From Tetraselmis striata (lineage: Eukaryota; Chlorophyta; Chlorodendrophyceae; Chlorodendrales; Chlorodendraceae), in the NCBI GenBank assembly GCA_006384855.1, contig VCJN01000067.1, positions 27,861-91,860 on the forward strand: a stretch of DNA of 64,000 nucleotides. The letters are read 5' to 3'. The notes under the pieces were generated by a model that saw only the letters and a program-made list of their open reading frames with translations, had not been told where the DNA came from and did not search any database. The first letter of the stretch is position 1. Each line of letters starts with the position of its first letter. The position numbers and the translations under genes are program-made. Of this stretch, positions 8,624 through 41,602 are shown piece after piece.

Positions 8624-8807
8624 AAACTCGTTTATGGGGTTTCCTCCCTTTCCCTAACCTCTTTTTGGCTACAGTGATGCTCCGTGGTACGGGAACTAGG
8701 CACCTGTCGTTGCGCCCTTTTTGGGGTGCTGCACGAGTAGACATACAAGTAGCCATCATAACAAATGAGCTTGCCATCTTCCAGTTTTCGATACGTCACA
8801 CGCAGCG
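8624..8807 (+). repeat. A1 terminal repeat of YR element 3
   Basis: Matches 11509-11690, 11958-12127 (inverted), 14904-15077 (inverted) and a solo copy at 39087-39262. Landmarks are tttatggggtttcctcc, cctgtcgttgcgccc, gcacgagtagacata and gccatcttccag. Confidence 0.85.
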
Positions 8808-8923
8808 ATGTTAAAACTTTCTCGTAGTAACATGTTGCGAGCAAGGTCACCCCAGGTTGTTCAAGGCAATACCCGGCTCACCACCTGTGTGTGATATTCT
8901 CATCCGTACGTCCGTGCGTTACC

Positions 8924-9860
8924 ATGTCAAATGGAGAAGAAGCCGTCGTTGAGCCGACGCTCGAATCGCTACAGCAAGCAAACGTGAAGGCCCAGTCTAC
9001 ATTGCTGCGCGAGCTTGCAACAGCGTTGGCTCAGTTGACGGCTCGTGACCGTGTTGTTTGTGGAGGTGGGGCACATGGCTTCGTCTCCGGGCAGCAGTGC
9101 ATCACGGGACAGCCGACAGGCAGCGGGGGAGCCGCAGTGTGCCCCGACTTCCCAGAGCCAGCCCAGAGCGGCCGTGTCGGAGCAAAATCCGTGAGTGACG
9201 AGGACGATTACCTCGCGGTGTCGGAACTATTGCAGCGAGCAGAGTCTGGTTACGAGGCCGTTCGACCGGTCAGCCGAGTGCCTTGACTCTCCCCCTTGAG
9301 CACCCACCTAACGAACGAGTACCTCAAGCAGGATGGCCGGCGTATGCTTCGTGGTTCGGCGCCCACATGGCCGCACTTTACGTAGCTCTCGACGAGCTAC
9401 TGCCCTACGTCCTTGCTGCAATAAATCAAAACTTCACCCCCTACGTCGCGCGTGCTCGGAATCACGCCGAAGCCATCGACAAGGCGTTTCGTTTTCGTTT
9501 GGCCTTCTTACGGAGGCTTAATGAGGTCAAGCGTGTGCACGGTGACTAAGGTGTTCTGGACGTGCTTCGAGCCCAGCACTTTCAGCATGCTTCTGAGCAT
9601 CGGGGTTCCGCGATTTTGGGGACCTCATGAAGGACTACGCACGAGCGTCGCGTTTTCAAGGCGACAATTGCCAGCAGCGCAAAAGCAACCGCTACTGCTC
9701 GAGTGGTGGCGGCGGCTGCATGACGCGGGCGTGGACGTGGGCGTGGTGGCGGGCCTGGGCGTGGCCGCGAAGGTGAGCACGAGTGATGGTTTGGCGCGTC
9801 TTTCGTCGGAGCTGCTGGCGCTTTGCGAGGCCACCTTTCGGTGACCGCCGCGAGGCGAAC
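8924..9860 (+). pseudogene. ORF1 (gag-like) of YR element 3
   Basis: It starts at ATG 8924 (MSNGEEAVVEPTLESL), followed by a predicted coiled-coil-like stretch (LLRELATALAQLTARDRVV). A stop follows SRVP near 9286. The continuation in other frames gives LSPLSTHLTNEYLKQDGRR, MAALYVALDELLPYVLAA, AIDKAFRFRLAFLRRLNEV and then a region aligned with DYERRVFEAAVAICAKATA of element 4. The family order of acidic N-terminus, helical core and RG-rich tail suggests a gag-like nucleic-acid-binding protein. No database family is recognised. Confidence 0.5.
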
Positions 9861-11400
9861 CTTAGCAGCTCAACGACGGGACGAGCGCTCTATGTCGGGA
9901 CCACACCCCCCCCCCCCCTCCGCCCCACCCACCGTACATGCTTCATTTAAACCTTCCCCGGTGCGACGCGTCTTACAGCCACAGCCGAGTGCGGCTCAAC
10001 CAACCGCCTCCCATACCATCTCATCGATGTGTCAGTCGGTTGTCACCCTGCGTGTTACAACTGGTTCGCAACGGCCAAGCTTCGCGCGTGTACGTTACGC
10101 GCGTGACAGGCGCTACGAGCGCGAAGAGCGTACGGGGCGGCCCTCCTACCTGAACCTAGCCCAGCAAACCCGTACTGGTGATGTTGTAAACCCGTCCAGC
10201 AACTACCAGCCAACCGCCGAAAACCTAACTGCTACCACCGAGTACTTTGCCAACATGAGCCGACCTTCTGTTACTCTGTCGGCCAAGCGCCGCACTTACG
10301 TAATTGACGAGCCCGAAGCTGTTGCCCCTTGAGCTGCTTCACTCCGGTCTCGGCTGCATGACGCGTTCGGCTCTGACGAGTTGGGGCAGCGGACCCTCGA
10401 TCTATTCTCGAGCTCCCTCATCGCTCAGACACTCAAGAGTAACGCCGGAAAATTGTCTCAGTTCGCGGAGTTCTGCCACGACTCTGAGAACATCAGCCCG
10501 TTGGAGGCGACTAGTGCTGTCGTCCAGTACGTTGCTTGGGTTGGTGAGCGTGGGCACAATGGGGCTAAGTCGTTGCAGCCCTACCCGTCCGCAATCAACA
10601 CGTTCTTCGAGCTACACAACCTCGACCCAAGGACAGCATGCACCTTACTACAGCTCGTCGTGGCCTGATGCTACGGCATCCCCGGCTAGACGCTGCCCCT
10701 TTGAGAGTCCCAATGCATGCTGATGTCGCTTACAGCTTCGTCGAGCAGGCAGAGTTGATTGTGACTGCTCCCATCCCAGAGTACCAGTACAACTTCCGAG
10801 CCCTCGTGGCCTCGTTTGTCAACTTCATGTTCTTTGCCAGGGGACTTACTGGCGTGTCCCGCCGAGTGCGGGTCATGCATGTCGACGGTTACAACATTAC
10901 CTTGCATGTGTACCGCGAGAAATGCCGCGCTAGTCGACGGGGCCCCGACGACCTGCGCGTGCTGCTTCTTCAAGTGTCAGAGCACCCCCGCATCGCGCGT
11001 CTCCTGCATCACTTCGCCGACCACGTACAGTCTGCCCCCTGGTTCCTGTTGCCTTGGGCAAAACTAACTTCTGGGCGATCACCCCGAGCGAGCAGTCCAA
11101 TTCTTGCCACAATATGTCGGAATGGCTCTCTGCGGATGTTCGTCTTGTCGGTGCTGCCCCTCCCGCCGGCACTTCCTCGAGCTCACACGGCCTTCGCAAG
11201 GGACCAGCGTTTGCCGCTAATGCTATCGGAACTCCACTGTCCCACATTCGCTACCAAGGCGGCTGGGCCACTAACTCCGACGTCGTTTTGGACTTCATCG
11301 ACCCCAACGTCCTTCCTTCGCCTAGCGTGTGGTTCTTCTTCGGTCACATCGCGCCCCTCCGCCACTTCCAAGTCCAACAAGACTCCGCAGCGGTAGGTGG
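9823..11400 (+). pseudogene. tyrosine recombinase of YR element 3 (Tyr to Phe)
   Basis: A proline-rich leader (9823-10332) ends at an in-frame TGA (10330-10332), after which the frame continues as AASLRSRLHDAFGSDELG. The core-binding domain is at 10381-10668 (LSQFAEFCHDSENISPLEA, YPSAINTFFELHNLDP). After a shift comes the catalytic domain: VSRRVRVMHVDGYNITLHVY (box I Arg, about 10857), YREKCRASRRG (Lys), SHGLRKGPAFAANAIG (box II, 11183), GGWATNSDVVLDFIDPN (11258). The spacing of GGW to the final motif is like Cre recombinase. The expected nucleophile Tyr is Phe (codon 11294-11296), which would abolish strand cleavage. Confidence 0.7.
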
Positions 11401-11476
11401 CCTTCCCGCTGCCCACTTCATGACTTGGCGCTACCCCTTCTCCGTCAATCCACCGCTCTCTCCGTTCGCTCATGAC

Positions 11477-11815
11477 TGGCAAAACCAGACTCAACTTGGA
11501 AATGATCTAAACTAGTTTATGGGGTTTCCTCCCTTGACCTAACCGCTTTTCAGCTACAAGTGCCGCTCAGTGGTACGGGAATTAGACACCTGTCGTTGCG
11601 CCCTTTTTTGGGTGCAGCACGAGTAGACATAAAAGCAGCCATAACAGCTGAGCCTGCCATCTTCCAGTTTTTGATGTATTACACGCAGCGCCCCCCCCCC
11701 CCCCCCCTGACTCCGTTTCCCCTCATCCACGCTTTCACTTAACCTTCCTGCCAGTTTCGGCTCTGGACCGCGTAAAACATTCTGTCCGACATTTTTGGCA
11801 ACACCAGACTCAACT
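11477..11815 (+). repeat. B1-A2-B2 block of YR element 3
   Basis: B1 (11477-11497, tggcaaaaccagactcaact) recurs as B2 (11796-11815, one mismatch) on either side of A2 (11509-11690) plus about 105 bp. A C homopolymer starts directly after A2. Confidence 0.8.
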
Positions 11816-11831
11816 GTCACAAAAGTTTCAA

Positions 11832-12172
11832 AGTTGAGTCTGATTTTGCCAAAAAAGGTCGCGCAGGCTGTTTTACACGGTCAAGAGCCGAAATTGGCAG
11901 GAAGGTAAAGTGAAATCGTGGAGGGAAAAACGGAGTCAGGGAGGGCGTTGCGTGGAACGCAGCGAAAACTGGAAGATGGCAGGCTCAGCTGTTATGGCTG
12001 CTTTTATGTCTACTCGTGCTGCACCCAAAAAAGGGCGCAACGACAGGTGCCTAATTCCCGTACCACTAAGCAGCACTTGTAGCTAAAAAGCGGTTAGGGC
12101 AAGGGAGGAAGCCCCATAAACTAGTTTAGATCATTTCAAAGTTTAAACTAGTTTTTGAGTCTGGTTTTGCCA
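11832..12172 (-). repeat. B1-A2-B2 block of YR element 4
   Basis: B1 (12155-12172) and B2 (11832-11851) both read tggcaaaa-c-agactcaac on the minus strand and flank A2 (11958-12127). Confidence 0.8.
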
Positions 12173-12199
12173 GTCATGAGCGAACGGAGAGAGCGGTGG

Positions 12200-13865
12200 A
12201 TTGACGGAGAAGGGGTAGCGCCAGGTCATGAAGTGGGCAGCGGGAAGGCCACCGCTGCGGAGTCATGTTCGACTTGGAAGTGGCGGAGGGGCGCGATGTG
12301 GCCAAAGAAGAACCATGCGCCAGGTAAAGGAAGAACGTTGGGGTCGATGTAGTCCAGAACGACGTCGGAGTTAGTGGCCCAGCCGCCTTGGTAGCGAATG
12401 TGGGACAATGGTACTCCGATGGCGTTGGCGGCAGACGCTGCTCCCTTGCGAAGGCTGCGTGAGGTCCGGGAAGTGCCGGCGGGAGGGGCAGCACCAACAA
12501 GACGGACGGATGCAAACAGCCCGTCCGACATTGTAGCGGCGGTCCAAGGTGTTAACTGCTCGCTTGGGGTGACCGCCCAGAAGTTTGATTCAGCCAAGGC
12601 AACAGAAACCAGGGTGACAGACTGTACGTGGTCGATGAAGTGGTGCAGGAGACGTGCAACCGGGGGTGTTCTGACACCGGAAGGAGAAGCACGCGTAGGT
12701 CGTCGGGGCCCCGTCGGCCAGCGCGACCTTTCTCGCGGTACACCTGCAGGGTAATGTTATAAACGTCGACATGCACATCCCGCACTCGGCATGAGACGCC
12801 ACTAGGTCCCATGGCGAAGAACATGAAGCTGACAACCGAGGCCACGAGGGCTTGGAAGTCGTACTGGTACTCTGGGATGGGAGCAGACACAATCAACTTG
12901 GCCCTCGCGACGAAGCGGTAAGCTACATCGGCAGGCAGAGGAACCCGCAAAGGGGCGGCTTCCAGACGTCGCTGCCGCAGCATTAGCCCACGCCTAGTTG
13001 CAATGAGGTGTAGGCTGTCTTTGGCGATTGGGTCGAAGTTGTGCAGCTCGAAGAACGTGTTGATTGCCGACATGTAGGGTTGCAATGACTTAGCTCCGAT
13101 GTGCCCTCGCTCACCAATCCAGGCAACGTACCGGACGACAGTAGCAGTGGTCCCTCCAGTGGGCTGATGTTCTCGGAGTCGTGGCAGAAGTCTGCGAACT
13201 GAGACAGCCTGCCGGCGTAACTCTTGAGTGTCTGAGCGGTGAGGAAGCTGGAGAGCAGGTCGAGCGTCCGCTGCCCTAACTCGTCTGAGCCGAAAGCATC
13301 ATGCAGCCGAGATCGCAGTGAAGCAGCCTAGGGAGCGACAGCTTCGGGCTCGTCAATTACGTAAGTGCGTCGTTTTACCGACAGAGTAGCAGGGGGGCGA
13401 CTAATGTTTGCAAAGTATTCGGCAGCAGCGGTTAGGTTTCCGGCGGTTGGCCGGTACGTAGTTGCTGGACGGGTTTGCAGTAGCACCAATACGGGTTTGC
13501 AGGGCTAGGTTTAGGTAAGAGGGCCGCCCCGCGCGCCCTTCGCGCTCGTAGCGCCTGTCACGCGTGTAACGTACACGCGCGAAGGTTGGTCGTTGCGAAC
13601 CAGTTGTTACACGCAGTGTGACAACCGACGGACGCAGTCCCGAAATGGTACGGGAGGCGCTTGGTTGAGCCGCCTTGCGCAGGTGTGCGGATGGTTGAGC
13701 CGCACTCGGCTGTAGCTGTAAGAAGCGCCGCACCGAGGAAGGTCTAAATGAAGTCTGTAACGTTGGGGGGGGGGGGGTGGGGTCAGGTCCTGACACAGGG
13801 CGCTCATCCCGTCGTTGAGCTGCAAGGGTGCGCTTTGCGGCGGTCACCGAAAGGTGGCCTCGCAA
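12200..13865 (-). pseudogene. tyrosine recombinase of YR element 4 (box II His to Arg)
   Basis: The leader at 13865-13401 contains a basic RYTRDRRYEREGRAGRPSYL segment. It is followed by YVIDEPEAVAP and a TAG stop (13328-13330), then AASLRSRLHDAFGSDELG. The core-binding and catalytic parts are at 13085-12552 (AINTFFELHNFDPIAKDSL, VSCRVRDVHVDVYNITLQVY, YREKGRAGRRGPDDLRVLLL). The C-terminal motifs are at 12597-12226: SRSLRKGAASAANAIG and GGWATNSDVVLDYIDPN. The box II His is Arg (codon 12457-12459), while the nucleophile Tyr is intact (12349-12351). Frameshifts occur near 13420, 13120 and 12590. Confidence 0.7.
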
Positions 13866-13879
13866 GGCTCCAGCAGCTC

Positions 13880-14778
13880 CGACGAAAGGCGCGCCTCACC
13901 GTCACTCGTGCTCACCTTCGCGGCCTCGCCCGTGTCCACCGCCACGTCCTCGTCCACGCCCGCGCCCTGCAGCTGCTGCCGTAACTCGAGCAATAGCGGT
14001 TGCTTTTGCGCAGATGGCAACTGCCGCCTCGAAAACGCGACGCTCGTAGTCCTTCATGACGTCCCCAAAATCGCGGAACCCAGATGCTCAGAAGCAGGCT
14101 GAAAGTGTTGGGCACGCAGCACGTCCAGAACACCTTGGTCACCGTGCACACGCTTGACCTCATTAAGCCTCCGTAAGCAGGCCAAACGAAAGCGAAACGC
14201 CTTGTCGATGGCTCCGGCGTGGTTCCGAGCTCTCGCGATGTAGGGAGTGAAGTCCTGACTTGCAGCAAGGACGTAGGGCAGCAGCTCGTCGAAAGCTACG
14301 TAAAGTGCGGCCATGTGGGCGCCGAAACACGACGTCCATAAATACTCCTCCTGGACGGCAGACGCCGGTCATCCTGCTTGAGGTACACGTTCGTTAGGTC
14401 GGTGCTCAAGGGGGAGAGCCCATGCACTCGGCTGACCGGTCGAACGGCCTCGTAACCGGACTCTGCTCGCTCTAGTAGCTCTTGCACCGCGAGGTAGTCA
14501 TCCTCGTCACTCACGGATTTTGCTCCGACACGGCCGCTCTGGGCTAGCTCTAGCAAGTCGGGGCGCACTGCGGCTCCCCCGCTGCCTGTCGGCTGACTTG
14601 CGATGCGCTGCCCGGAATAACCGGAGCCATGTGCCCCTTCTCCACCAACAACCCTCTCACGAGCCGTCAGCTGGGCGAATGCTGTCGCAAGCTCACGCAG
14701 TAATGTAGACTGGGCCTTCACGTTTGCGTGTAGCGACTCGAGCGTCGTCTCAACGACGGGTTCTTCTCCATCTGGCAT
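13880..14778 (-). pseudogene. ORF1 (gag-like) of YR element 4
   Basis: It starts at ATG 14778 (MPDGEEPVVETTLESLHANV) and is open through LLERAESGYEAVRPVS and LTNVYLKQDDRRL. It then shifts frame at about 14350 into MAALYVAFDELLPYVLAA and AIDKAFRFRLACLRRLNEV. A last shift gives DVMKDYERRVFEAAVAICAK and a glycine/arginine tail (AGRGRGRGRGGGHGRGREG). This is the most complete ORF1 of the family, about 300 residues. An acidic start, helical middle and RG tail fit a gag-like RNA/DNA-binding protein; no named domain is recognised. Confidence 0.55.
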
Positions 14779-14903
14779 GGTAACTCACGGACGTACGGAT
14801 GAGAATATCACACTCGGGTGGTGAGCCGGGTGTTGTCTTGAACAACCTGGGGTGACCTTGCTCGCAAAAGGTTACGAGACAGTTTTTACATCGCTGCGTG
14901 GAA

Positions 14904-15077
14904 CGCAGCGAAAACTGGAAGATGGCAGCCTCGGCTGTTATGGCTGCTTTTATGTCTACTCGTGCTGCACCCAAAAGGGCGCAACGATAGGTGCCTAGTT
15001 CCCGTACCACTGACGAGCAGCACTTGTAGCTGAAAAGCGGTTAGGTCAAGGGAGGAAATAACCCCATAAACTAGTTT
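14904..15077 (-). repeat. A1 terminal repeat of YR element 4
   Basis: Inverted match of 8624-8807 and direct match of 11958-12127. It ends at ccccataaactagttt. Confidence 0.85.
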
Positions 15078-15300: not shown

Positions 15301-15519
15301 ATACATTTACTGCTGTACTACTCCTGCTAACACAGCATACCCAGCCCCTGCGAAAGGGGGCTTTACTGTTTGTGCTGACCTGGGGGCGCCGCTCCGCCAG
15401 CGCGCATGCGCGCCACTGTACTCCGCGCGCCAACACAACCTGCTGTTGGACTTCACGCCAGGAACGATACAGGTATAGTAATGCTACCTGACCTACCTAC
15501 GGTAGGTACCCTGTATGAT
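15301..15519. other. spacer between LINE end and tandem repeat
   Basis: No gene is seen. It holds a palindrome gcgcgcatgcgcgc near 15397 and the motif cctgacctacctacggtagg (15488), which recurs in part at about 19503 and 19783 beside other LINE ends. Confidence 0.4.
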
Positions 15520-15917
15520 TTTTCTCGTTCGCGGCAGTTTGTTTCGACTGCTACGCGGCTTGCATGCGGCGGGCAGCTGCGACTACGGCGCGGCGGGCGG
15601 CTCCAAGAGCGGCGGCATCGCGGCGGTACGCGGTATTTTCTCGTTCGCGGCAGTTAGTTACGACTGCTACGCAGCTTGCCTGCGGCGGGCAGCTGCGACT
15701 ACGGCGCGGCGGGCGGCTCCAGGAGCGGCGGCATCGCGGCGGCACCCGGTATTTTCTCGTTCGCGGCAGTTAGTTACGACTGCTGCGCGGCTTGCCTGCG
15801 GCGGGCAGCTGCGACAACGGCGCGGCGGGCGGCTCCAGGAGCGGCGGCATCGCGGCGGCACCCGGTATTTTCTCGTTCGCGGCAGTTAGTTACGACTGCT
15901 ACGCGGCTTGACTGCGG
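15520..15917 (+). repeat. 116-bp tandem repeat, about 3.4 copies
   Basis: The phrase ttctcgttcgcggcagt recurs with an exact spacing of 116 bp (anchor C at 15524, 15640, 15756, 15872). Each unit continues with a GC-rich part ending in gcggcatcgcggcgg. Because 116 is not a multiple of three, the long open frames across it are not evidence of coding. It abuts the 5' side of the LINE-A remnant, so it may be a LINE promoter-like 5' repeat. Confidence 0.85.
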
Positions 15918-18900
15918 CGCCTGGCCCGTGCCCCCGGTGTTTCCGTCTGCCGAGGAGGTGGGCCAGGCGGCCCGCTTTCTATGGCCGACGACATGCAGAC
16001 GACATACGGTGTGGCGGGGAGTCGGGGCGCACCCTAGGTGGCCTACGTCATGTCGGCGCAAACTTCCACCGAGACATGGGGGCGCTGGGGCTCCACATCG
16101 AGGCGAGGGAAAAGCAAGAGATTCAGCGGGCGACTGCGGCGACTCCGCGCGACGGGAAGCACAAGAAGCGGGCGAAGCGACACCGTCCATCTTGACCTTT
16201 GCTTGCATGTTCTTTGTGTGTTTGCCTTACTATGTGTTGCGCGAGGCTTCGTGTAAGTGTGTGCTCCCTAACTATGCTTTGAACCTTGCCCTCTACCCAG
16301 GTTTAACCCCTTCTTTCGAGACCTCGGGGACCCGTGGGCGGTGCTGGGGGCCGCACCGGATCCTGGCCAGTGGAATCGCGCGCCACCCTCCCCACGCAGG
16401 GAGTAGGGTTGCGTGTCCGATATGGCCTAAGCTGGTTTACATCCCCCAGCTTGCAACCAAGGGTGCACCCCTCCCATCGCGGCAGGCGGCTTGCCCGGTG
16501 TGCGGCAGTGGGTGCGGCTGTGCGTCGGGGTCAAACCTTGCCGTCAAGTCCACTTAGCTCGAATCCCTGATGGAGCTGTTTTCCCAGGGCCAGGCTCTCA
16601 AATTGCGAGGAAGCCCCTTGCGAGGTTGAGCAACTCGGGTATGGGCACAACGCGGGAGAGGGGCACGGAGATACACTTTTGTGCAGCGCCTGGTTCCTCA
16701 ATTACCAGCGCCACCCCAGGATCGGGCCACACGCAGCCAAGTCCCTCCACCTAGCTACGGCTGAGTGTAGAGCCGTGCCTGGCTATGATACGCAATATGC
16801 TCGGAGGGGAAGGTTCAGAGACTAGACGGGAGCCGGTGCGGCGGGGCACCGCCGTGCTCAAGATATAGTCCCTCACCAGCTGAGAGGGTGCCTGTAGTGA
16901 GCTCCCCAGGGAGGGGTGAGCCACAGGGGCTGGGCCGTTCCCAGCTATGTGAGATCGTATAATATGGAGCTAGTATGGGAGTGAGCTCCGCGGCTCGGGG
17001 GTTGGTGGAACGGCATGCCACCCTCGTGACTGCCCATGTTTGTAAAAATATGATCTCGAGGCACCATCATCCAGCGCCACATCGATTGCTCTCCACTACA
17101 CCTTGTTATCCCTGCGCTCCTAGCCTCCCTCTCCACGAATTTGTATCTGATCGTGGACGACCGGTCCGCCCCTCTGCGGTCGGAGGACGGCGTGCAACAG
17201 GGCGCACCTTTGGCCACGACTTCCTTTTGCGTCGCGATTCACCCCGAGGTGCAGCAGTGTGATACCACGTTGGAGGTCAATGACGGGGCGGCGCGCTTCA
17301 ACGCCGACGATGGATTTTTGGTGGGCCTTCCGGAGCACGTTCGGCCGGCTCTCCACGCCTTCCGCACGTCCATCAAGGCGTCCGTGGGGCTTGGGGTGCG
17401 CTTCGACAAGATGCAGGCGTACAGCGCAGCCATGGAGGCCGCGCGGCGTGAGGCTCCGGCCGACATCGAGTGGCCCGAGCTAGATGGCCATCACGGCATC
17501 GCGGTCCTGAACGTGCCGCTCGGATCACCAGAGTATGTGCAGGCGTACATGCGCGGCAAGGCGGAGGAGCTACGAGAGGAGGTGGACGCTAGCCTGAGCA
17601 AGCTTTTGTCTGCCAAGCCCAGCCGTCGGTACACCCACGCCTTGCATCACCACGCATGGGCCCTGCTCAAGCATTGCATGCAACACAAGGCGGGGTATTG
17701 GCTCCGCAATTGTCTTCCGTCCGAGGTGGAGGCCTTTGCAGAGGCGGTGGATGTCACCATCCTCGCGGCGGTCCAACGGGTGCTAGGGGTCTCTTTTGAT
17801 CCCTCCACGTACGGCACCGACACCAATCCGGTGGTCACCGATTTCTTGGGGGAGCTTTTGCACGACCCCGACCCCATGCCAGCGGAGGTGGCTACCTTGA
17901 GCGAGGATGCAGTGGCCAGGGCGCGCATCAGGCTTCACCTCCCCACTCGATTGAAGGGAGCTGGCATCCGCCGCATGGCTACCGTTCGTGATGCCGCCTT
18001 CATCGGCTGCATGAATGCCATCCTCCCAAGGTTCTTGACAACTCCGGCACCAACACCCCCACCCCTGGTTTCTTCGACCCACAGCTCGGGTCCGTACTTG
18101 GACGAGGCAGCTTCAACGCAACTTCTTCCGCCCGCCAGTATGACCACTTCCTCAACGATGCTCATGGGTCGGACAGCTACGCCGCGGAGATGCGCGAGGC
18201 GTGGGGCCGCCTCCAAGCGGCTTCTGCTGGCCATCTCGGCGACGCAGACGCACGCCATATGGAGCGGGAAGTGGAGGCTGCGTCGGGCTCGCAAAAGGAG
18301 CTGGCAGCATTTCTAGACCAGGCCAACAACTCTCGGCTTCGAAATGAGGTGTGCGCTCTCCCTGCCACATGTAGGGAACGGATCTTGTTCAACCAGCTCG
18401 ACACGGCGTCAGGCATGTGGACAGTGGCCATCCCCACCGCGCGGACAGCCATGAATCCGCATGAGCTGCGGGAGGTCGCTGCCGGGTACTTCTTTCTGCC
18501 TAGCCCGTGCTTGGCCCCGGTGGTTGGGTGCCAGATCATTCTGCCCTCGACGGAGCACAACCCCGTCACTGTCGACCTATACGGCGACGCGCTCATGAAC
18601 CTCCCGGCGCCTGGAGACGCTCACTGGCGTGTACAGCACGACGCTATCGCAGATGCCTTCCGCGATCACTATGTTCACGACCTAGGTATTGCGGTACGGC
18701 GGGAGGTGGATGACTTGTTCCAGCAGGCAGTGCCTCTCGGCAACACCGTACCCAGGGATGAACTCAAGGACCTAGTGCCGGACGCAGAGCTCTCCCTTCC
18801 GGCGTTCAACGTCGTGACCGGGAGTTATGATCCCCGGAGCTTGAAGTCCACGCACGCTGCTGGAGTTCAAGACTATGCGGTACGGGCGGGGTCAAGTACA

Positions 18901-19330
18901 CTTCAGTGCCCCGGGCCACGGCTGTGGATCGGTTTGAGCGCTCCCTGTTGGGCGACATACAACGGGGGTTGGCTGCGCGGGATGCGGCGTGGCACAAAAC
19001 AGAGCCCGGACAGAAGGGTCCTCTTCGAGACATCCTGGATATGTCGGAGTACACGCACGGGCATGGTCTTCGGCACAGTGGGTGAGGTGAGCAAGGGGGT
19101 GCACCGCACAGTGCGTGGTATCGCGCATGCTTGGCTGCGGATCGGCGGGGTGCCCTCTCATCGCGGGGCACTCGGTGCATCACCCGGGCTCATCAGGAGG
19201 CCTTGCTCGCAAGAAATTTCCTCGGGGTCCTGAGCTTGGTGGCCGCTCGAGAGCGCGCTCGCTGCCTCATCAGACGGCGCAGATTCGTCTGCCATCCCGT
19301 TGCTGAAGCTGCACAGCACGTCCGAGGATC
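15918..19330 (+). pseudogene. LINE-A non-LTR retrotransposon remnant with reverse transcriptase
   Basis: An upstream ORF fragment (to 16195) has a basic end (GKHKKRAKRHRPS). The reverse transcriptase is recognised by VRQWVRLCVG (about 16500), then, after the group I intron, NMISR/GTIIQ, EDGVQQGAPLATTSFCVAIH (17177, the GxxxQGxxLx motif) and FNADDGFLVG (17299, the catalytic (F/Y)-x-D-D). The connection region continues to about 18030, where a frameshift moves the frame into SGTNTPTPGFFDPQLGS and then 18190-18840. The C-terminal part has VDLYGDALMNLP, WRVQHDAIADAFRDH and, after another shift, VPRATAVDRFERSLLGDI. It would copy its own RNA at the target site. At least four shifts make it inactive. 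Confidence 0.75.
16555..17042 (+). ncRNA. group I intron (IC1-like core) inside the LINE-A reverse transcriptase
   Basis: All conserved core elements are present in order: P3 ggctc (16593-16597), P4 tgcg (16604-16607), P5 gccc/gggc (16613/16724), P4' cgca (16732, within acgcagccaagtcc), P6 ccctcc/ggagggg (16743/16803). The R element ggttcagagactagacgg (16812) and S element aagatatagtcc (16860-16871) form P7. P3' is gagcc (16830), P8 cggtgc/gcaccg (16834/16846), P9 ccctc/gaggg (16870/16884). P and Q elements resemble the Tetrahymena rRNA intron. Borders are inferred: a U at 16554-16555 and a terminal G at 17038 or 17042. Either pairing restores an in-frame ...HF(C)KNMISR junction. No homing endonuclease ORF is seen. 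Group I introns splice themselves out of RNA using guanosine. Confidence 0.85.
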
Positions 19331-19371
19331 ACCCACACACACACGTGCTCGCGTGGCCCGGACTCTGAACC

Positions 19372-19776
19372 GTGTGTGCATCACTCATCCATCCCGCCTT
19401 ATGCGGGATGCGGGCCGCTTTTAGGCGGCTTGCTGTGTTGATTTTCTAATTATGGGGAACTGCCCTTTTTGTAATTCACACAGGTACCCTGTATATAATA
19501 TTGCCTGACCTACCTGGTGTGAATTACAAAAAGGGCAGTAATAAATCCACCTACTACTAAAGTAGTATACTACTAAAGTAGTATAATCCACCCCGCAGTC
19601 GATGTAGATTGTAGAGGACCTTTCTGATTGCCTTTTATTTTGGTGATTTCCGATATCGCCTTCTGCTGCTAGCTCATGTAATTACTAAAGTAGTATACTG
19701 AAAAAATCAACAGGGCAAGCCGCCTAAAAGTGGCCCGCATCCCCCATGAGGATGAGCGATAAATGAGTGATGCCTG
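19372..19776. repeat. inverted LINE-A 3' ends enclosing a small palindromic cluster
   Basis: 19372-19448 (gcatcactcat ... gcgggccgcttttaggcggc ... gttgatttt) is repeated inverted at about 19702-19776. Each arm has the hairpin gccgcttttaggcggc. Between them sit the 81-bp terminal-inverted-repeat element (19459-19539), a palindromic tactactaaagtagtata stretch (19551-19586) and a LINE-C-like 3' tail (19608-19692, gccttctgctgctagctcat). Confidence 0.65.
19459..19539. mobile_element. 81-bp element with perfect 23-bp terminal inverted repeats
   Basis: 19459-19481 and 19517-19539 are exact reverse complements (actgccctttttgtaattca... and its mate), separated by 35 bp that include tatataatatt. It could be a miniature inverted-repeat element or a foldback hairpin. 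No target duplication is obvious. Confidence 0.6.
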
Positions 19777-20268: not shown

Positions 20269-20928
20269 ATGATGATCGGGCTCGGCAAGTACACGGGCCT
20301 CAGCGCGGTGGCCGCTAGCGCGGTGGTGTACCATGCCTTCGCCACGCGGGAGCAGTGCGCGCCCCCCCCCCCCCCCCCCCCCCCCCCCCTTCCTCCTCCC
20401 AGCCAGCACCGCCCTCTCCCCGGGGCGGAAAAAGGCCAAACTCTGCCCTCAGCCCTCGCCCCCGCGTCGCTTATCGCCACCCTCGCCACCACTGAGCCCC
20501 GCCCGTTCGGTCCCGGCGCGCAGGTTCTACCCCTCGATGCAGTACCTCACCTCGTCAAAGCTGTCTATCGCGGTCATGGGAAACCTGGCGTTTGCGCTAT
20601 CGCTCTGCATGTACCGTCTCCTTATCCAGATGTTCCTGGGCACGCTGCGCGAGGCAGAGGTGGAGCGCATAAACGAGCGCATCAGCCAGGCGGTCATGGA
20701 GACCTGCCTAGCGATGACCATATTCCGGGAGGAGTTCAACATTGCCTTCATCGCCATGTTTGCCTCCCTCACCTTCGTCAAGGTATTCCACTGGTTGGTG
20801 CAAGACCGCGTGGATTACATCGAGACCACGCCCACTGTGAGCCTTGGCCAACATGTCAAGATCGTATCCCTCATGGGCCTGCTCCTGGTGCCCCCCCCCC
20901 CGCCCCCCCCCCCCCAAAAAAAAAAAAA

Positions 20929-20982
<54 letters not shown>

Positions 20983-23696
20983 GAAGCTCCTCCTTCTCTG
21001 GCGCTGCCATGTCCCCATGCTGACAGCCTTCATCCGTGCTGGCAGATGGTGGACGCGCTGTTCCTTCAGTACACCATCTCGGCCACGCTGGCGCGCGGCC
21101 CGTCCGTGCTGCTGCTGTTTGCCTTTGAGTACGTCATCCAGGCGTCCTTGGTGGTGAGCACCTTCCTCAAGTATGGCTTTATCGGCGTGGACATGATGCT
21201 GGAGGGGCGCTGGGAGAGCAAGGGCGTGTACGTCTTCTACCTCGAGCTCATCACCGACATGTTGCACCTCTTTGTGTACCTCATCTTCTTCATCATCGTG
21301 TTCACCTACTACGGCCTACCCCTGCATCTGGTACGCGACCTGCGCCATGCACAAGCGTGCAGGCGGGCATCCCGACGCCCACCCCGCTGCTGCAGCTGCC
21401 TTGTACTCGCTGCCCCTCCCCTAACCCCCTGCCTGCATTGGCCTGCAGGTGCGCGACCTGTACTGGACCTTCCGCAACTTCCGGCAGCGCGTGTCGGACT
21501 TCTTGCGCTACCGCCGCGTGACGGCCAACATGAATGAGCGCTTCCCCGATGCCAGCGCAGAGGACCTGGCGCGCTGCGACGGCACGTGCATCATCTGCCG
21601 CGAGGAGATGTCGCCCACAACCGCCAACAAGAAGCTGCCATGCGGGCATGTGTTCCACCTCACGTGCCTCCGCTCCTGGCTCGAGCGCCAGCAGAACTGC
21701 CCCACCTGCCGCGCCAACGTGCTGGGCTCCCGCCCTGCTGATGCCCCCGCAGCCGAGCCGCAGGTGCCAGAGGGCGAGCGCCCCGCAGCCGCTCCCAGAG
21801 AGGGCCAGGTCAGAATGCCCCCCCCCCCCCCCCCCCCCCCCTTCCTCCTTCACTCACCCTCCCGCCAGTCACCGATTGGATGGCACGCAGCTGGGCACAA
21901 TCTGCAGCCTGCGCTACCCATTGCGCGGAAATCCCATGCCAGCCTCTGTCAAGGGGCAAGATTCTGTAAAAGTACGGAGGTGCAGATACTCGGTTTCCAG
22001 AGCAAGGCACATACATGCCGGGGCAGAGAGACGATGCAGACACTCAACCATAGGATGTGTACATTGCTGTTAAGTCCATATCAGCAATCATTTGGGCAAC
22101 TGCCCACAGCTGCAGTGACACTGATCCCCCCCCCCCCCCCCCCCCCGGGCCCCTCCTGCCTCACTAGGCGGCTGTTATCCAGGGCAACGGTGCCGGGCCC
22201 GCAGCTCGGCAGCCAGCTGATGCGCAGCAGCCAGCCGCGGTCGCTGCTCCCCAGCCTGCCGCAGGCCCAGCGCCGCAAGCTCCTCCTGCTCCCACGCACC
22301 AGGCGCGCGCCGCGGCTCAAGCACCGGCCGCCGCGCCAGCCAGCCAACCAGCAACGGTTCAGGTGCGCCCGTGACGCCCCTTGCCGACATAACACATTAT
22401 GCCCCGGAATTATACGGGTCGCTCAAACGACCATCGGATATCATGCACCCCTTGCTGTGCCCGCCACTTGCTATGTTGCGCTGCTGCTTTGAGCGCGCTT
22501 GCGTTAGTATTGTGGAAGTGCGCACTGACAGCTCGACTGGCTACCTGGACTGTGCGGAAGCGCCATCAGGACGCCGCCCCAAGGCCCTCCCAGGGCACTG
22601 TGCGTCGGCGCCATCCGCCCTCCGACAATGGCGCAGCCTCCGCCTCCACCGATACGACGTCCACGGCCCCTCCGGCGCAGCCGCAGCCGGCGCATGGCTG
22701 GCACTTTTACAGCTCCCCCATGGGCATGTTCCCCGGCATGATCCCCATGCAGTATGCGGGCCAGCAGCCAGCTGTGCCACCCGCATCGGCGGAGCAGGCG
22801 GCTGCGTACATGCTGCCCAGGATGAGTGTGCCCATGGTACCAATGTCCATGCTGCTGCCGCAGCCCACGTACGCCATGCCTGCCACCAGCAGCGGCGCCA
22901 CGCCCGAGCAGCACCAGGCCGCGGCCGCGGCCGCTGCCGCCGCCACCGCTGCCCTGTTCAACCCCTGGAGCAGCCTGGCCATGATGCCGCCTGCTATGCC
23001 GCAGCCTGAGTACGGCGCCGCAAACTCGCAGCATCATGCCGCTAGCGCCAGCGCGGCTGCAGCTCTGGCGAGCGCTGCGGCGGCTGCCGCGGTGATCTCC
23101 TCCAGCTCCCAGGCGCCTGCCACCGCAACGCAGGTGCTCCAGAACCACATCAACTTCTTGCAGGCAAGCCTCCCCCCCCCCCCCCCCCCCACCCCTTCCC
23201 TCTCCCCCTAGATCATTGGGCAGCTGTGGACGTTGGCTCTATGTGCAAGAGCTTACCACCGCGCCCTGCTGGCTATGGTGCCACTGACACTTCTCCGTGC
23301 TTGCGCCCGTGCCCGCAGTCCCACATGCAACAGCTTGAGGGCGCTGCCCCGCCATCTGTGCCCTCCGCCAAGGGCAAGGAGAAAGTGGATGAGGCCATGA
23401 GCAGCTCTGCGGCCTCTCAGGAGAGCGCAGCCACGGCCAAGGCGGAGACGCCCCCCACCCAGCCGGAGCCTCCGCAAGAAGAGACGACCGCTGGTGCCCA
23501 AGACACAGCAGAGGTCAGTGAACTGCTGGGATCCCGATGGTGTGATGCAATTGAGTGGGAGGGCTGGTGCGGGAGGCCATCAACTCCACACATTTGTAGT
23601 GGTCTAATTGCCCGCAACGGATCTGCTCTGCAGGGATCCACCACTGGTGATGAAGAGGAGAAACTGCGCCAGGTGCGCCTGCAGGGGTTTCAGTAG
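20269..23696 (+). CDS. HRD1: HRD1/synoviolin-type ER membrane RING E3 ubiquitin ligase
   Basis: Exons: 20269-20354, 20524-20887, 21046-21330, 21449-21808, 22183-22362, about 22594-23163, 23319-23513, 23634-23696; about 700 residues. All phases agree; the start of exon 6 is the least certain. HRD1 ubiquitinates misfolded proteins exported from the ER (ERAD). The N-terminal ~250 residues are multi-spanning (GLGKYTGLSAVAASAVVYHA; FALSLCMYRLLI; YLELITDMLHLFVYLIFFII). RYRRVTANMNERFPDA precedes the RING-H2 at residues ~292-333, CIICREEM ... LPCGHVFHLTCLRSWLERQQ ... CPTC, with all eight zinc ligands. The C-terminal half is disordered, rich in Ala, Pro, Gln and Met, as in algal and plant homologues. 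The start is the first ATG of the MMIGLGKYTG context. The intron after exon 6 begins with GC (caggcaagcc). Many introns contain C homopolymers near the donor. Confidence 0.93.
20930..20982 (+). repeat. (AC)n microsatellite in HRD1 intron 2
   Basis: About 25 AC units follow a C homopolymer and an A homopolymer. It lies wholly inside the intron 20888-21045. Confidence 0.95.
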
Positions 23697-25974: not shown

Positions 25975-26400
25975 ATGCAGCCCTCATGCCCGGAGCGTTC
26001 CTCGCCATGCGAGCCACCGGACGCCCAATCTACACCCTCACCCCGCAGCTGACCGCCCACCACCACAGCATCATCGGTGGCACCCGCGGCACCGACATAA
26101 CATAGCAGGGGCGCAAGAGAGTGTCAACAGCGTGCGAGAAGATCAAGGCCGCGCCAGCTCCGGCACCAACCGAGAGGCGCCCTGCCGACACATCGCTAGC
26201 CCCACCATCTGCGGGCCCAAACCAACTGCCACCTCCAGCGACCCGAGCAGCCCCGACCACACCCCAAGTCCGCGACGCTCCCCCCCCTGGGTTCGAGCAC
26301 GTAACACCGAGGCGAGGAGCGGTTGCAGACGCAGTATATGCCGCCACTGCAACCATGTGCCCCGGTCGGGTCCGCGCTCCGGGCACGTAGCTGGTCATTG
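25975..26400 (+). pseudogene. ORF1-like fragment of a retroelement, copy 1
   Basis: 25984-26335 is a close direct copy of about 36880-37220: cgagccaccggacgcccaat, caccacagcatcatcggtgg, aagatcaaggccgcgccagc and ggttcgagcac are shared. The longest frame is Pro/Ala/Arg-rich with the phrase KAAPAPAPTERRPADTS, which looks like a disordered ORF1 linker. It ends where the minisatellite begins. I do not recognise the family. Confidence 0.45.
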
Positions 26401-26469
26401 GCGCCATCATGCCGCCAGTGCACCCTGTGGGTGGGTTGACCATGGTGGTGGTAGTCATTCCGAGGAAAC

Positions 26470-26870
26470 CGCACTCCGCCGGCCTATCCATAGGGCTTTC
26501 CAACAAAGGAATAAAGTACTACTCTTCTAACACCGTAGAAAGCTGCGGAGAAGTATGAAATTTGTAAGTTCAGTAAAATGTTCAGATCACAGTGCTGCAA
26601 TCACAAGTGCATACCTTAGCACGGTAGGCTTGTGCTATGCTTGTATTGATAAGCGAAGCATACCTACAACACATGTAAGCTTGTGTGCTTTTGTTTATTA
26701 CATGTACAATACCTGTTGTCCATAAGTCTCGTCAGCACCAGCGGACAACCACCCGCGCGTTGAAGAACGGCACCAACTGCTTGCCGTCGACAGTGTTGTA
26801 ATTGGTGTCGACAGCGATCTCCTCGTCGCCTCGATGCTGGTGTTGATGCGCAAGTTGACGTCCTCTCCGC
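26470..26870. other. AT-richer spacer inside the minisatellite region
   Basis: No gene seen. It contains short repeats of acatgtaagcttgtg type near 26670 and lacks the 70-bp unit. Confidence 0.35.
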
Positions 26871-27329
26871 CTGGGCTCCACACGACGGATGCGCCCACCA
26901 GCGTACCGCCATGTGCCCCGGTCGCTGTCGCGGCACGGGCAGACAGATGGTTGGCGCACACGGGATTTCATTGCTCCGTGCGCCCCGGTCGCTCTCGCGG
27001 CCCGGGCACGCAGCTGGTCAACGCCAACGGGCCGTCGCTTCACGTCGTTGGAGCCCCGGCTGCTCTCGCAGTTCGGGTACCCAGTCGATCGGCGCCATCG
27101 GGCCGCCACTGCACCATGCGCCCTCGGTGCCCATCGGCTTCTGCGGTCATGGCAAGCATCAGTTGGTCGCCGCCAACGGGCCGTCACTATGCCACGTGCC
27201 ACGTCGCTTCCGCTGCCCGAGCACGCAGTTAGTCGGCGCCCTTAGCCCGCTAGTGCACCTTCGTGTCCTGGCCGCTTCCGCGCTCCGGGCACACAGCTGC
27301 TGGTCGGCGCCAACGGGCCGCCGCTGTCA

Positions 27330-27760
27330 GTTGTACTCGTAGCGATACTCGGTTGCCCGTGATCGATACGCGCACAACGCGATATACCGGTACTCGGCTG
27401 CCCGTGTACCGGATATACATGGCTATATCCATATATGCGGTTGCCCGCAGATATATGAAATGCTCTGATCTTTTGTATTGCTTTCACCGCCAATTTCTCG
27501 GAGACTTGGCTGCGATGCAAGAGGTCACTTGTTCGATTCCCTTATCACATGGAAATCGGATTAGTCGTAATAGGTCCATGGATGGGACTACGGGATGGAA
27601 TGTTAGTTGTACTCGAAAACCCGGTTATTGCCCGTGATTGGTACTACTCGTACATCAAGACATACCGGTCCTCCGCTGTTTGTGTACCAGAAATATGGCT
27701 GTACATGCGGCTACCCGCAGATGTATGACATGCGCGATCTTTTGTGTTGCTTTCGACCGC
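27330..27760 (+). repeat. ~155-bp direct duplication interrupting the minisatellite
   Basis: 27330-27485 and 27603-27755 are diverged direct copies: agttgtactcg, ggtt-ttgcccgtgat, acataccggt/atataccggt, tatatggct/atatggctgt, cggctacccgcag/cggttgcccgcag, gatcttttgt-ttgctttc. Between them lies a short stretch with cacttgttcgattccc, a B-box-like sequence without a matching A box. Confidence 0.55.
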
Positions 27761-29186
27761 TGCACCATGCTATGTGCCACGGTTGTTTTCGCAACCCGGG
27801 CACTCAGTACCCGGTTGGCGCCGTCGGGCCAACATTGTACCTTACATGTGCCCCGGTGGCTTTCCCGGCCCGAGCACGCAGGTGGTCAACGCCAACGGGC
27901 CGTCGTTGCACGTTGGGGCCTCAGCTGCTCTCGCAGTCCGGACACGCAGCCGGTCGGCGCCATGATGCCGCCACTGCATCATGTGCCCCCGGTCGCTTCG
28001 GCGGCTGGGGCACGCAGCTGGTGGGCGCCAATGGGCCGCCGCTGCACGCCTCTGCCCCGGGTTTTTCACAGCCCGGGCACGCAGATGGTGGGCGCCGCCA
28101 TAACGCCACTGCATCTTGTGCCCCGGTCGCTATTGCGGCCATGGGAGGGAGCTGGTAGGCGCAAACGGGCGCCGCTGCACGTGGTGCACCGGTTGCTTTC
28201 GCAACCCGCGCACGCCGCCGGTTGACGCCATCACGAGGCCGCCACTTCACCCTTTTCCCCAGGCGCCCTCGCGGCTCCGGCAGCAGGCGGTTGGCTAGCG
28301 CCCATAACGGGCCAACACTCGATGTGGTGCACCGGTTGCTTTCGCACGCCGGGCACTCAGTTGGCCGGCCCCATCAGGCCGCCACTGCGCCTTTTGCCCC
28401 GGTTGCCCTCGCGGCTTCGCCGGCATGCAATTGGTTGGCGCCAACGGGACGCCGTTGCACGTTGTTCCCGGTTGCTTTCGCCAGACCGGGCACGCAATTG
28501 GTTGATCCCATCGTGCGGCCACTGCATGCAGCTGGTCGGCGCCAACGGGCTGCCGGTGCACGTGGTGCATCGGTCGCTTCGCAGCCCGGGCACGGAGTTG
28601 GCCCGCGACATGAGGCCGCCACTGCACGCACGTGGTCGCCGCCGACAGGCCGCCGCTGCACGTTGTGCCCCGGTTGCTTCGCAGCCCCGGACACGCATCT
28701 GGTCGGCACCATCGGGCGGCCACGCACCGTGTGCCCCGTTCGCTTCAATCTGCGGCCCGGCCACGCAACTGGTCGACATCACCAACGCGCCGCCGCTGCA
28801 CGTTGTGCCCCGGTTGCCTCGCAGCCCCGGGCACGCAAGTGGTCGGCTCCGACGGGCCGCCGCTGCACGTTGTGCCCCCGGCTGCTTTCGAAGCCCTAGG
28901 CACGCAGCTCGTCGGCACCATCGGGCCGTCGCTGCACGCTTGCCTCGTTGGGCTGCCCCTGCTGCATCCCCAACCCTGCGAACAGCAGGCTATGGACTTC
29001 ATCAAGCAGCTATACCCCCCGACCGCCTGTCGTACGCCCCGACGTGCAACGGTAGTCGGCCGTTTTTTCTCCGTATATGTCTCACTTTCCAGCCGGCCCT
29101 TAACACCGGGCGAAGTACTGCGTATGTACTAAATCCTGGCGAGCCAGTGCGGCTACTGGTACTTAGCGTGATCCTCCTGCGAAACG

Positions 29187-30155: not shown

Positions 30156-30522
30156 TGTAAGTACTCGTGGCAGTACTTAGTGAAACATGGCTCTTACTAG
30201 TAGCGTTTGGCGAATTGAGTTAGTTGCAGAATGTAATCTCTTACAACATGCCGGTGGCATTGGATATTTATCCTATAGCGGTCCGACTCGGCACCGCGGA
30301 CAGGCAACTAGTAGCGCTATCCTGATGATTTAGGAGTTCTAGCGCGTACTGTATTTATGTTACAAGGAATATTACTGGTGTCTCGTTGTGGAAGTACCAG
30401 TAAATAATACGCGTGCTGACATATAAGTACAGCAGTACATGCGCGTGCTGAATACTTGGCCATAATCTCGGCGTCACTGGTTTATGGTGGTATTCGGGTA
30501 GTCGCTAGGCGCAACCCTAACA
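30156..30522 (-). repeat. 3' LTR of the gypsy element
   Basis: 367 bp. Differs from the other LTR at only a few positions (for example tactagtagc versus tactattagc, ggcaccgcgg versus ggcactgcgg, tattcgggta versus tattagggta). Confidence 0.95.
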
Positions 30523-30636
30523 TTCCCACCCCTCTGATAAATGACGAACTGGAAAGTGTCTGTCCGCGTCGCCGAAGGCCTGGCGCAGATGTCGGTTGGC
30601 GGTGGAAGCGTGATATAGCAACAGCAGCAAGACGTG

Positions 30637-31470
30637 TCAACGCTCCGGGATGGACTCTGGAAAACGCGACGGGTGGCACGCTCGCAGGTTGGCGTATTCC
30701 TTTGAGCGTAGCGTGTCTTGCAGATGTCGGCTCGCCCTTGCGAAATCGTGTAGCGCCTCGAGACGTCGCAGCGCGCTGTATGGCTCCCAGTTGTCGTGAC
30801 TTGAGTCGTAGTTCAGCCAACGCACCAGAAAGACGAGGCAGAGTCCTCGCTTGAACAGATCCTCGCGGCGCTCGATAGAGAAGTCGAGCACGCGTTCAAC
30901 GACGAACTCGTCGACAGGGGGCTCCACACTGGACGGAATTGTATCGGGCTGTGCGTTTGGATGGCGCACTGGCGCAGTCGACTGATGTGAAACACATTGT
31001 GGCAGTCGAACGTTGGTGGCAGGCGCAGACGATACGCTTGGCTGGAGATCTTGGCCGTGACCGGGTAGGGGCCGATGTAGCGCTGTCGGAACTTGCGCGC
31101 CGGTTGGTTGCGTAGAAGCAAAAGCTCCGTTGAGAGCCAGACTTTGTCTCCTTCTGCGAACTCAACAGGGCTGGTTTTGCGGTCGGCATAGACCTTTTGA
31201 TATTCATCAGCAAGCTTCAGTTGCTCAGTAATCAACATGTGAATATCTTGAATATTTGCAACTGTTTGGCGTGCATCTCGGTTGGCAGTAGCAATCAGAT
31301 TAGGTGGTGTCAGTGGCATCATGCCATAAATTGCGTCAAAAGGGGCACAATGTGTTGCTGAATTGACTGAATTGTTGTAAGAAAATTCAGCAAGAGCCAA
31401 GCAAATGACGTAACCAAGAGTCATGTTGCTTGTGTACAAACGCACGTAATATTTGCTCAATAGTTATGTA
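30637..31470 (-). pseudogene. gypsy integrase C-terminus and chromodomain
   Basis: 31460-30970 gives LALAEFSYNNSVNSATHCAP, EGDKVWLSTELLLLRNQPAR, FRQRYIGPYPVTAKISSQAY and NVFHISRLR, the GPY/F-type integrase C-terminus. A shift then leads into a chromodomain at 30900-30720: FVVERVLDFSIERRED, LVRWLNYDSSHDNWEPYSAL. Chromodomains guide chromovirus integration to marked chromatin. The catalytic Glu region (AYHPQTDGQSERT) sits upstream in yet another frame near 31490. Confidence 0.85.
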
Positions 31471-31479
31471 GGTGCGTTC

Positions 31480-33707: not shown

Positions 33708-34093
33708 GGTTTTGAGTTCCTCAGTGGTAATGACGTCATTAATTGCCTGGGCTGAACGTTCCTCAACAGTATAGTCAGCCAGGTAGACATCAACATACCA
33801 CTCAGTGGGTCCTAAAGGTTCAGTATCAGTCGTTGAATCGGGTGTGTGAAACAGATATGTTCCAGGCGGGTAGCTGTGATTTTTTTATATTTTGAAAGCA
33901 GCGGTTTCCAGGATTGTCCTAATTGTGAGGACCATATGGGCATAACAATAATACCTCTTGTCTTTTCATCTCAAAATGCTGCAAGATAGGCAGGGCTGTG
34001 TCATCATACACTGGATTGATGGACACAGTTTTACCTTTTATATCTTGTTGCAGAAATGGTTTTTCAGCACTGCAATAATCTGAACATACAGCA

Positions 34094-34561
34094 TCATATG
34101 CTGAGACACAGGTATGAAAAGTGACTGGACCATAGGCATAATTCAGTCTTGAATTCTGCTTGGTCAACCACAACAGAGTCAGTTGGACATGCATTTGGTT
34201 TTGCATATTTGTCAATTTCAGTGTCATTCTTTTGATTATTGTTTTTGGTACGCATTCTGCGCACTCGAGATCTCTTTTGCATGATAGTCAGTTTGGCATG
34301 CAGTTTAGCATGCGTCTTTTTGTCTTTGACATTTTTGTCGACATTTTCTCTGCACCCTGTCTCGTCCTCGATGTCGGCAATGAGGTGTGAATGAGCACAG
34401 GAACACCCATGAGCTTCATGCTCAGGTTGTGAGTCGGAGGGGTTCAGTGCCGCGGGAGCGCAATGCTCAACCATATCGACATATGTATCCTCGATCTCAT
34501 GCAGGGGCTGAGCAGGCGGTTTAGTAGTGCATGCATGTTTGTTTCTTTGCATGGACTTCAT
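34094..34561 (-). pseudogene. gypsy gag-pol linker ORF
   Basis: 155 codons (MKSMQRNKHACTTKPPAQPL ...) with a His/Cys-rich stretch EHEAHGCSCAHSHLIADIED and a basic segment KRSRVRRMRTKNNN. It overlaps the end of the zinc-knuckle frame and precedes pol. No named domain; it is probably the C-terminal part of gag before the protease. Confidence 0.5.
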
Positions 34562-35601: not shown

Positions 35602-35755
35602 GGCGACAAGCGACTCGGATAAAGGTTGAAGGGTACAGAATCGTTACCAAGGATCGGCAGGACCAGCGAAATCGCGAATGTATCGTCGTGCGTGCGAGAG
35701 CAGATCGTGGTGGGTCGGCAGGTGGAGATGGATCGTAACAGGAAGCCGAAACCAG

Positions 35756-40547: not shown

Positions 40548-40673
40548 TACCCATGGTACTAGTCGCGACGCTTTTCCAGTCGGATCACGAGTCAGCCCGC
40601 AAGATTCCCCATGCTGCTAATTCGGCCGCCGCTTCGCGGGTGCTAAGCCTTCGCCCGCGCAGGGGTTCCGCGC

Positions 40674-41327: not shown

Positions 41328-41384
41328 GTTCCACCATCACATGTCACGCACGCAGCGGGGGTTGTTGCAGCGAGTCTAAGCTTG

Positions 41385-41590: not shown

Positions 41591-41602
41591 CTAGGTACAT
41601 AT

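Follow-up and report, generated by a model that had tools for sequence, protein, structure and literature searches.

The window analysed here is the whole 64,000-nt stretch (C51:27861-91860 in the 224-Mb Tetraselmis assembly). Its plus strand carries a chimeric element in which a group I ribozyme, ending in a fixed G, directly adjoins a 5'-truncated LINE fragment:

15504-15516: 5' target-site duplication of 13 bp, identical to 19482-19494
15517-16543, plus strand: upstream part of the ribozyme-carrying transcript, common to other copies at variable 5' lengths
15520-15919, plus strand: 3.4 copies of a 116-bp monomer, opening the upstream part
16540-16543, plus strand: GCCG, the putative own 5' boundary motif directly before the ribozyme (CCG^U); the units of the L031 array and the 5' end of L036 begin right behind GCCG
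16544-17061, plus strand: group I ribozyme with terminal fixed G, from RF00028 and comparison of copies
17062-19481, plus strand: LINE-A fragment, 5'-truncated just past reverse transcriptase (RT) motif A and extending to the LINE 3' end (96.9% identity over 2,424 nt to the LINE-A reference)
19482-19494: 3' target-site duplication of 13 bp, identical to 15504-15516

An Rfam scan of the whole window returned a single RF00028 match at 16522-16892 on the plus strand (52.0 bits, E 2.5e-10; gathering cut-off 50 bits), which bears out the group I core proposed in a preliminary description of this DNA; the intron span given there (16555-17042) is replaced by the unit 16544-17061 that comparison of copies delimits. 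The R element lies at 16813-16824 and the S element at 16860-16871, and the window copy lacks ~40 nt found in other copies. In a genome-wide RF00028 search (27 of 2694 candidates scored, 20 listed, the window copy absent from those 20), two other family copies among the matches listed, at 53.6 and 52.8 bits, exceeded the cut-off, which 14 further listed copies at 31-40 bits did not reach. Four short (~205 nt) matches scored 78-84 bits in the same genome (C780:21111, C1557:7838, C2317:7301 and C1674:20571) and are perhaps an organellar tRNA intron.

The P3, P4, P6, P7 and P8 pairings previously drawn by hand were upheld across 18 copies: standard pairs filled 94.4% of the cells, and sliding the pairing partners as a control reduced this to 36.5-56.4%. 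The covariation claimed for the same stems was not seen in the 18 copies, where two-sided change occurred in 0 of 26 pairs and shuffles equalled the data. The stem arms are complementary, and no more than that. RNAalifold, a method that cannot represent pseudoknots, drew no pseudoknotted core for the family. A search with an 18-nt core pattern retrieved six viral and two genome contigs, seven of which were scanned with RF00028. Their identity to the core spans 22 nt, 18 of which had served to retrieve them, and outside the core they are dissimilar to the window ribozyme. At the core-pattern site, RF00028 introns were present in five of the seven (L097, L098, L100, L103 and L104), with the identical 22 nt inside them in four (L097, L098, L100 and L104); at that site in L099 and L101 no RF00028 intron reached the cut-off. 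L103 (BQJP01000067.1) is a bacterial MAG contig with eukaryotic rDNA carrying three group I introns; the eukaryotic rDNA on it is probably MAG contamination.

LINE-A is of non-LTR type, as judged by 5' truncation, variable-length duplications and a lack of LTRs seen by inspection only. Evidence for its putative RT domain is a weak PF00078 (RVT_1) hit to a homologous copy at 24.7 bits (E 2.2e-5), under the cut-off of 29.6; PF00078 was present in 4 of 120 LINE-A homologues listed, and the FNADD motif was seen by eye. A PDB sequence search with a LINE-A homologue gave two matches (E 0.031 and 0.76), neither of them an RT. LINE-A is far more numerous than the ribozyme (2,424 first-look candidates, 40 scored). 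A fragment of LINE-C, a second LINE-like family, lies at 40569-41600 of the window with no ribozyme ahead of it (~82% identity to the LINE-C reference).

With 40 of 156 candidates scored, the genome yielded 46 matches to the ribozyme DNA; the motif of the ribozyme 3' end had 108 at one mismatch or fewer, versus 0 for a reversed control. When aligned, the copies have in common variable lengths of upstream sequence and diverge directly behind one fixed final G. A placement was obtained for 69 of the 77 junctions read, each being a ribozyme unit of variable 5' length followed by a 5'-truncated LINE, another retroelement or the element's own RNA; the continuations comprise LINE-A and LINE-C at differing cut positions, at least one further repeat, and own RNA (in L027, L028, L031, L032, L033 and L051). 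L031 consists of five head-to-tail ribozyme units, and L046 and L047 are broken within the ribozyme. The partner in L091 and L019 is a further repeat, not LINE-A or LINE-C as referenced, with relatives in L029, L031 and L033. Some copies are 99.8% identical over 900 nt.

Among 60 matches to the ribozyme 5' end, 55 carry the element's own upstream sequence, four lie in one tandem array and one is L036, which begins exactly at the first ribozyme base behind a target-site duplication and two bases; none of the 60 has LINE sequence on both sides of the ribozyme. Likewise, all 53 matches to the upstream exon end retain the ribozyme, with no spliced, ribozyme-less copy among them: 49 were counted via the exon-ribozyme joint, including five ribozyme bases, C975 and C1576 via a downstream ribozyme 3' end, C1727 via a ribozyme DNA match and C2132 by reading its sequence. 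The earlier idea that splicing renders the ribozyme invisible to the LINE is not supported by these copies. Since all 53 retain it, and since no constant 3' exon follows it at the 77 junctions, the element is filed as a group I ribozyme rather than as a proven intron.

In the window, the 13-bp duplication encloses the upstream part, the ribozyme and the LINE fragment together. Duplications of 10-17 nt surround whole chimeras both for LINE-A (window, L021, L024, L026, L030, L033, L034, L036 and, found by eye, L025) and for LINE-C (L023, L035 and L040); several have ACCAGT in common, so that the shortest (L033 and L034) are weaker than their length implies. L032, in which only 9 nt adjoin the unit, was left out of the count, the repeat of L038 is not adjacent to its unit, and no flanking duplication was found for L022, L027, L028 and L031. 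The arrangement is that of MINE-type chimeras: the 3' end of an RNA fused to a 5'-truncated LINE, with duplications enclosing all. On this evidence each chimera is most simply read as one insertion event.

The source of the chimeras was RNA, because L024 precisely lacks a 500-nt GT-AG segment that L030 retains; one source RNA was thus spliced by the spliceosome. Across ten loci, the unspliced joint of this intron was present in L027, L029, L030 and L033, the spliced one in L024, and neither in five. Five of the longest units (window, L024, L029, L030 and L032) have their 5' ends at nearly one position of a 113-116-bp monomer, unlike L033; the tandem 5' monomers may act as promoter. An upstream ORF (L030 4697-5488, 263 aa) matched no Pfam family and had one protein match at 14% coverage; no claim of coding is made for it, its ATG sitting in the 500-nt spliceosomal intron.

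What precedes each joint in an unbroken partner was established by taking the bases upstream of the joint from copies uncut there. From 87 raw matches to the 3'-end motif, 13 non-ribozyme ends were removed by hand, leaving 74 junctions; L001-L020 were outside this count, and L018-L020, not read elsewhere, were added later to reach 77. The joints read GAG|G in nearly all copies. An uninterrupted relative was available for 66 of the 74 junctions, and in 54 of these 66 the joint nucleotide was directly preceded by CC; the three added junctions all read CC[G]C. Eight of the 77 had no relative, among them L056 and L073, which deviate from GAG|G and on visual inspection suggest joining of a 3'-shortened ribozyme through short homology.

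Statistics were counted by site, because the ribozyme and LINE parts of same-site copies diverge alike (ribozyme/LINE identities of 95.5/97.6, 93.4/93.9, 95.7/95.2, 99.5/99.7 and 88.1/88.6%). For the same reason repeated use of a site was rejected as proof of independent events: copies at one site may stem from a single joining. By site, CC was found in 33/42, CCG in 29/42 and YCG^Y in 32/42, over backgrounds of 0.091, 0.029 and 0.0257 respectively (8,784 positions of LINE-A, LINE-C and upstream sequence), giving log10 P of -26.0, -34.4 and -41.8. Two of the 42 site keys (L057 and L084) are one site; with it counted once and two new sites included, YCG^Y stands at 33/43, and without self-targets and poor relatives at 28/35. 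The signal is confined to four positions (C 35/T 6, C 38, G 38, then C 27/T 13 of 42); YCG^Y was itself defined on these data, and no other nearby position deviates as strongly.

This lost motif resembles the CCG^U before the ribozyme, which we infer to be the element's own 5' splice site. Junction microhomology cannot account for the CC, because those nucleotides are absent from the chimera. At three sites, represented by four joints, the base after CC in the relative is A (L036/L053), C (L038) or T (L027) and in the chimera it is G, which suggests that the joint G is the last G of the ribozyme itself. CC also stands ahead of the self-RNA joints of L027, L028, L031, L032 and L033, though not of L051. 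The best relative lacks CC at 12 of the 66 junctions: four of these are one site whose relative is merely 75-79% identical, L021 and L075 have CC in other relatives, and the remaining exceptions are L051 (two), L030, L031, L037 and L052. These remaining exceptions all have a pyrimidine before the G.

As a control, we used 5' ends of LINE truncations free of ribozyme, whose positions as given by BLAST are uncertain by a few bases. The first set, from LINE-A, comprised 14 starts, after start 105 (chimera L026) and start 840 (an inner piece of a copy on C1326 that starts at 166) had been dropped from an original 16; CC preceded 1/14 (start 660 on C1567, read and ribozyme-free) and YCG^Y fitted 1/14 (start 80 on C956, likewise read and ribozyme-free), and for the other 12 the absence of ribozyme was judged from 100 listed places of 3'-end matches. 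The second set, 12 rows minus the chimera L048, includes some short pieces and L021, which lies at the reference edge; both CC and YCG^Y were found in 0/11. Altogether CC preceded 1/25 controls versus 33/42 chimera sites (Fisher P 8e-10), and YCG^Y 1/25 versus 32/42 (P 3e-9). The truncation on C956 falls at the exact site of chimera L030, and its fit to YCG^Y is by BLAST end; it has two bases in common with its ACCAGT target, and the window copy reads TTG at that site. The 5' ends of the ribozyme units themselves were preceded by CC in 4/12 (nominal P 0.02), which hints at a mild RT preference, and none of the 12 fits CCG^Y save L036, the exact ribozyme start.

Starting from the core, the fixed 3' end, the lost motif, the duplications around whole chimeras and the spliceosomally spliced source RNA, all read directly from the DNA, we consider the likeliest account (probability about 0.64) to be half a reverse-splicing reaction, in which the terminal G of the ribozyme would attack LINE RNA at CCG^Y and the LINE machinery would copy the hybrid into the genome. 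In outline: i) a transcript with the group I ribozyme at its 3' end would be produced, probably driven from the tandem 5' monomers; ii) once the ribozyme 3' end is released, its terminal guanosine (omega-G) could attack LINE RNA or the element's own RNA; iii) the attack would fall at CCG^Y sites resembling the own 5' boundary CCG^U, on RNA paired to the guide; iv) this first half of reverse splicing would free the upstream RNA and attach the downstream portion of the LINE RNA to the ribozyme; v) since the hybrid retains the LINE 3' end, the LINE machinery could reverse-transcribe and insert it by target-primed reverse transcription. Tandem units and self-joints would be products of the same reaction on the element's own RNA. 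From the preliminary description this account keeps the route, reverse splicing into RNA of the LINE with target-primed copying to follow, which is the simplest way to couple the ribozyme to a LINE. It departs from that description in the arrangement: the LINE is not interrupted by the ribozyme, which instead forms the 3' tail of a separate transcript, its last G joined to a LINE fragment with nothing of the LINE upstream. The promoter, the catalysis, the order of the steps, the guide pairing and the enzyme are conjectured here.

Several observations weigh against half reverse splicing: i) most joined units keep their own upstream sequence, an expected competitor for the guide; ii) the 53 upstream-exon matches include no ribozyme-less spliced copy; iii) of the two candidate guides (IGS), AUGG at +27 (25/27 copies) pairs three target bases only, and GCGG at -29 (26/27 copies), which could pair all four, falls upstream of the ribozyme 5' boundary as we place it; iv) a similar motif in a fungus has been ascribed to RT pausing, according to the available part of that report (PMC2104539); v) some junctions lack CC in the best relative or have no relative, the ribozyme-free truncation on C956 coincides with a chimera site, and same-site copies may go back to a single joining.

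The strongest competitor, though distinctly less probable, is template jumping: the LINE RT would pause before CC on LINE RNA and switch to an abundant ribozyme RNA at its 3' end, the joint G reflecting one-base pairing with the acceptor's last G. Such an architecture is known from U6-L1 chimeras (PMC13174262, as far as available), and the lost GCC^A/U of Magnaporthe has been explained in this way by the authors who described MINE (PMC2104539). The units of L032 and L033 resemble successive jumps, and the CC at 4/12 unit 5' ends and the ribozyme-free truncation of C956 at a chimera site fit as well; owing to C956, our estimate for half reverse splicing was slightly lowered (from 0.66 to 0.64) and that for jumping raised. 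However, ribozyme-free LINE truncations show no CC preference, and the 1/25 in controls makes it less likely that the RT generally stops at CC in this alga, with the proviso that RT stops leading to jumps could differ in kind from those ending insertions. Moreover, the CC is not copied and is hence unexplained by pairing of the cDNA, the four joints at three sites with A, C or T in the relative drop that base, and no unit 5' end other than the exact ribozyme start of L036 fits CCG^Y.

Less probable again, to the point of being unlikely, is guanosine-dependent cleavage of LINE RNA at CCG^Y by the ribozyme, after which the RT would run off the new 5' end and jump to the ribozyme 3' end. Run-off jumping is a property of R2-type RTs, and this route would account for both the motif and the joint G without covalent joining of RNAs. 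Against it, it takes two steps where one suffices and predicts frequent CCG^Y in ribozyme-free truncations, where the 1/25 found is ambiguous.

An ordinary group I intron inserted in the LINE RT gene is highly improbable. It was the preliminary description that placed the ribozyme inside a reverse TRANSCRIPTASE, and the ribozyme does adjoin RT sequence at 17061/17062; the left flank, however, is the element's own upstream region, which recurs in other copies before other LINE positions, and only the right flank is RT. Four LINE-A copies (L041-L044) run continuously across the point, with motif A just upstream, so that insertion into the RT is refuted for the window copy. Elsewhere the ribozyme adjoins other LINE positions and other retroelement families, and the duplications enclose the whole. 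Equally improbable is repeated nesting, with later LINEs inserting site-specifically behind the ribozyme element, which would suit the head-to-tail arrangement but not the duplications beside the units, which enclose unit plus LINE and never the LINE alone.

Half reverse splicing gains a point of comparison in the MINE elements of Magnaporthe. As described in the available part of PMC2104539, WEIRD RNA is fused there to a 5'-truncated MGL LINE in 33 chimeras at 28 sites, the joint motif is GCC^A/U with the GCC lost, and six sites are used by two chimeras each; the authors infer RT template switching and leave unexplained why the RT dissociates exactly before GCC. The Tetraselmis chimeras, compared here with that published description, share a non-coding RNA for which no solo copy was found and whose 3' end is fused to 5'-truncated LINEs at numerous points, duplications enclosing the entire chimera, a lost motif just upstream of the joint, shared sites and the tripartite form of MINE. 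They differ in that the partner is a group I ribozyme, of which the available text makes no mention for WEIRD, and in that ribozyme-free truncations can serve as a control. The likeness of the two motifs might reflect either a habit common to the RTs or similarly guided ribozymes in the two systems. The ribozyme reading would also supply a mechanism for the loss of GCC in MINE, for which none has been given.

For LINE-1, RNA ligation versus template switching is debated as the origin of U6-L1 and other chimeras (PMC13174262, in its available part). These resemble the present ones in that the RNA, mostly sense-oriented, is fused to the LINE and duplications are present; unlike here, neither a lost upstream motif nor a ribozyme is mentioned in the available text. 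Nuclear group I introns all interrupt rRNA genes as far as known, according to the accessible part of a 2013 review (PMC3679873). The Tetraselmis ribozyme has in common with them the conserved core, P7, the R and S elements and, probably, the terminal G; it differs in that its 77 junctions are dispersed fusions, to LINEs or other retroelements where placed, without a constant 3' exon. Among open-licence PMC titles and abstract openings we found no group I ribozyme joined to a LINE. Were half reverse splicing correct, the chimeras would be a natural record of a reverse-splicing pathway in which the LINE machinery supplies the last two steps. We see an even chance that this is a mobile element multiplying by ribozyme chemistry, a stowaway group I RNA forming covalent joints with LINE transcripts at CCGY, and that the chimeras are genomic fossils of nuclear reverse splicing and integration, with MINE/WEIRD maybe a second case.

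The remainder of the window holds further features. A very large imperfect inverted repeat at 8757-14942 has ~3-kb arms that are 83-99% complementary in pieces, with 241 nt between the innermost arms. A partial synoviolin/HRD1-like E3 ligase gene (PF25563, E 5.9e-32) lies at 20269-21537, and a 67-nt repeat in seventeen diverged copies at 26356-28939. At 30156-36055 there is a probable LTR retrotransposon, whose 300-bp direct repeats (30156-30455 and 35756-36055, 99% identical) enclose a minus-strand pol ORF at 31521-33707 with RT_RNaseH, Integrase_H2C2 and RVP_2.
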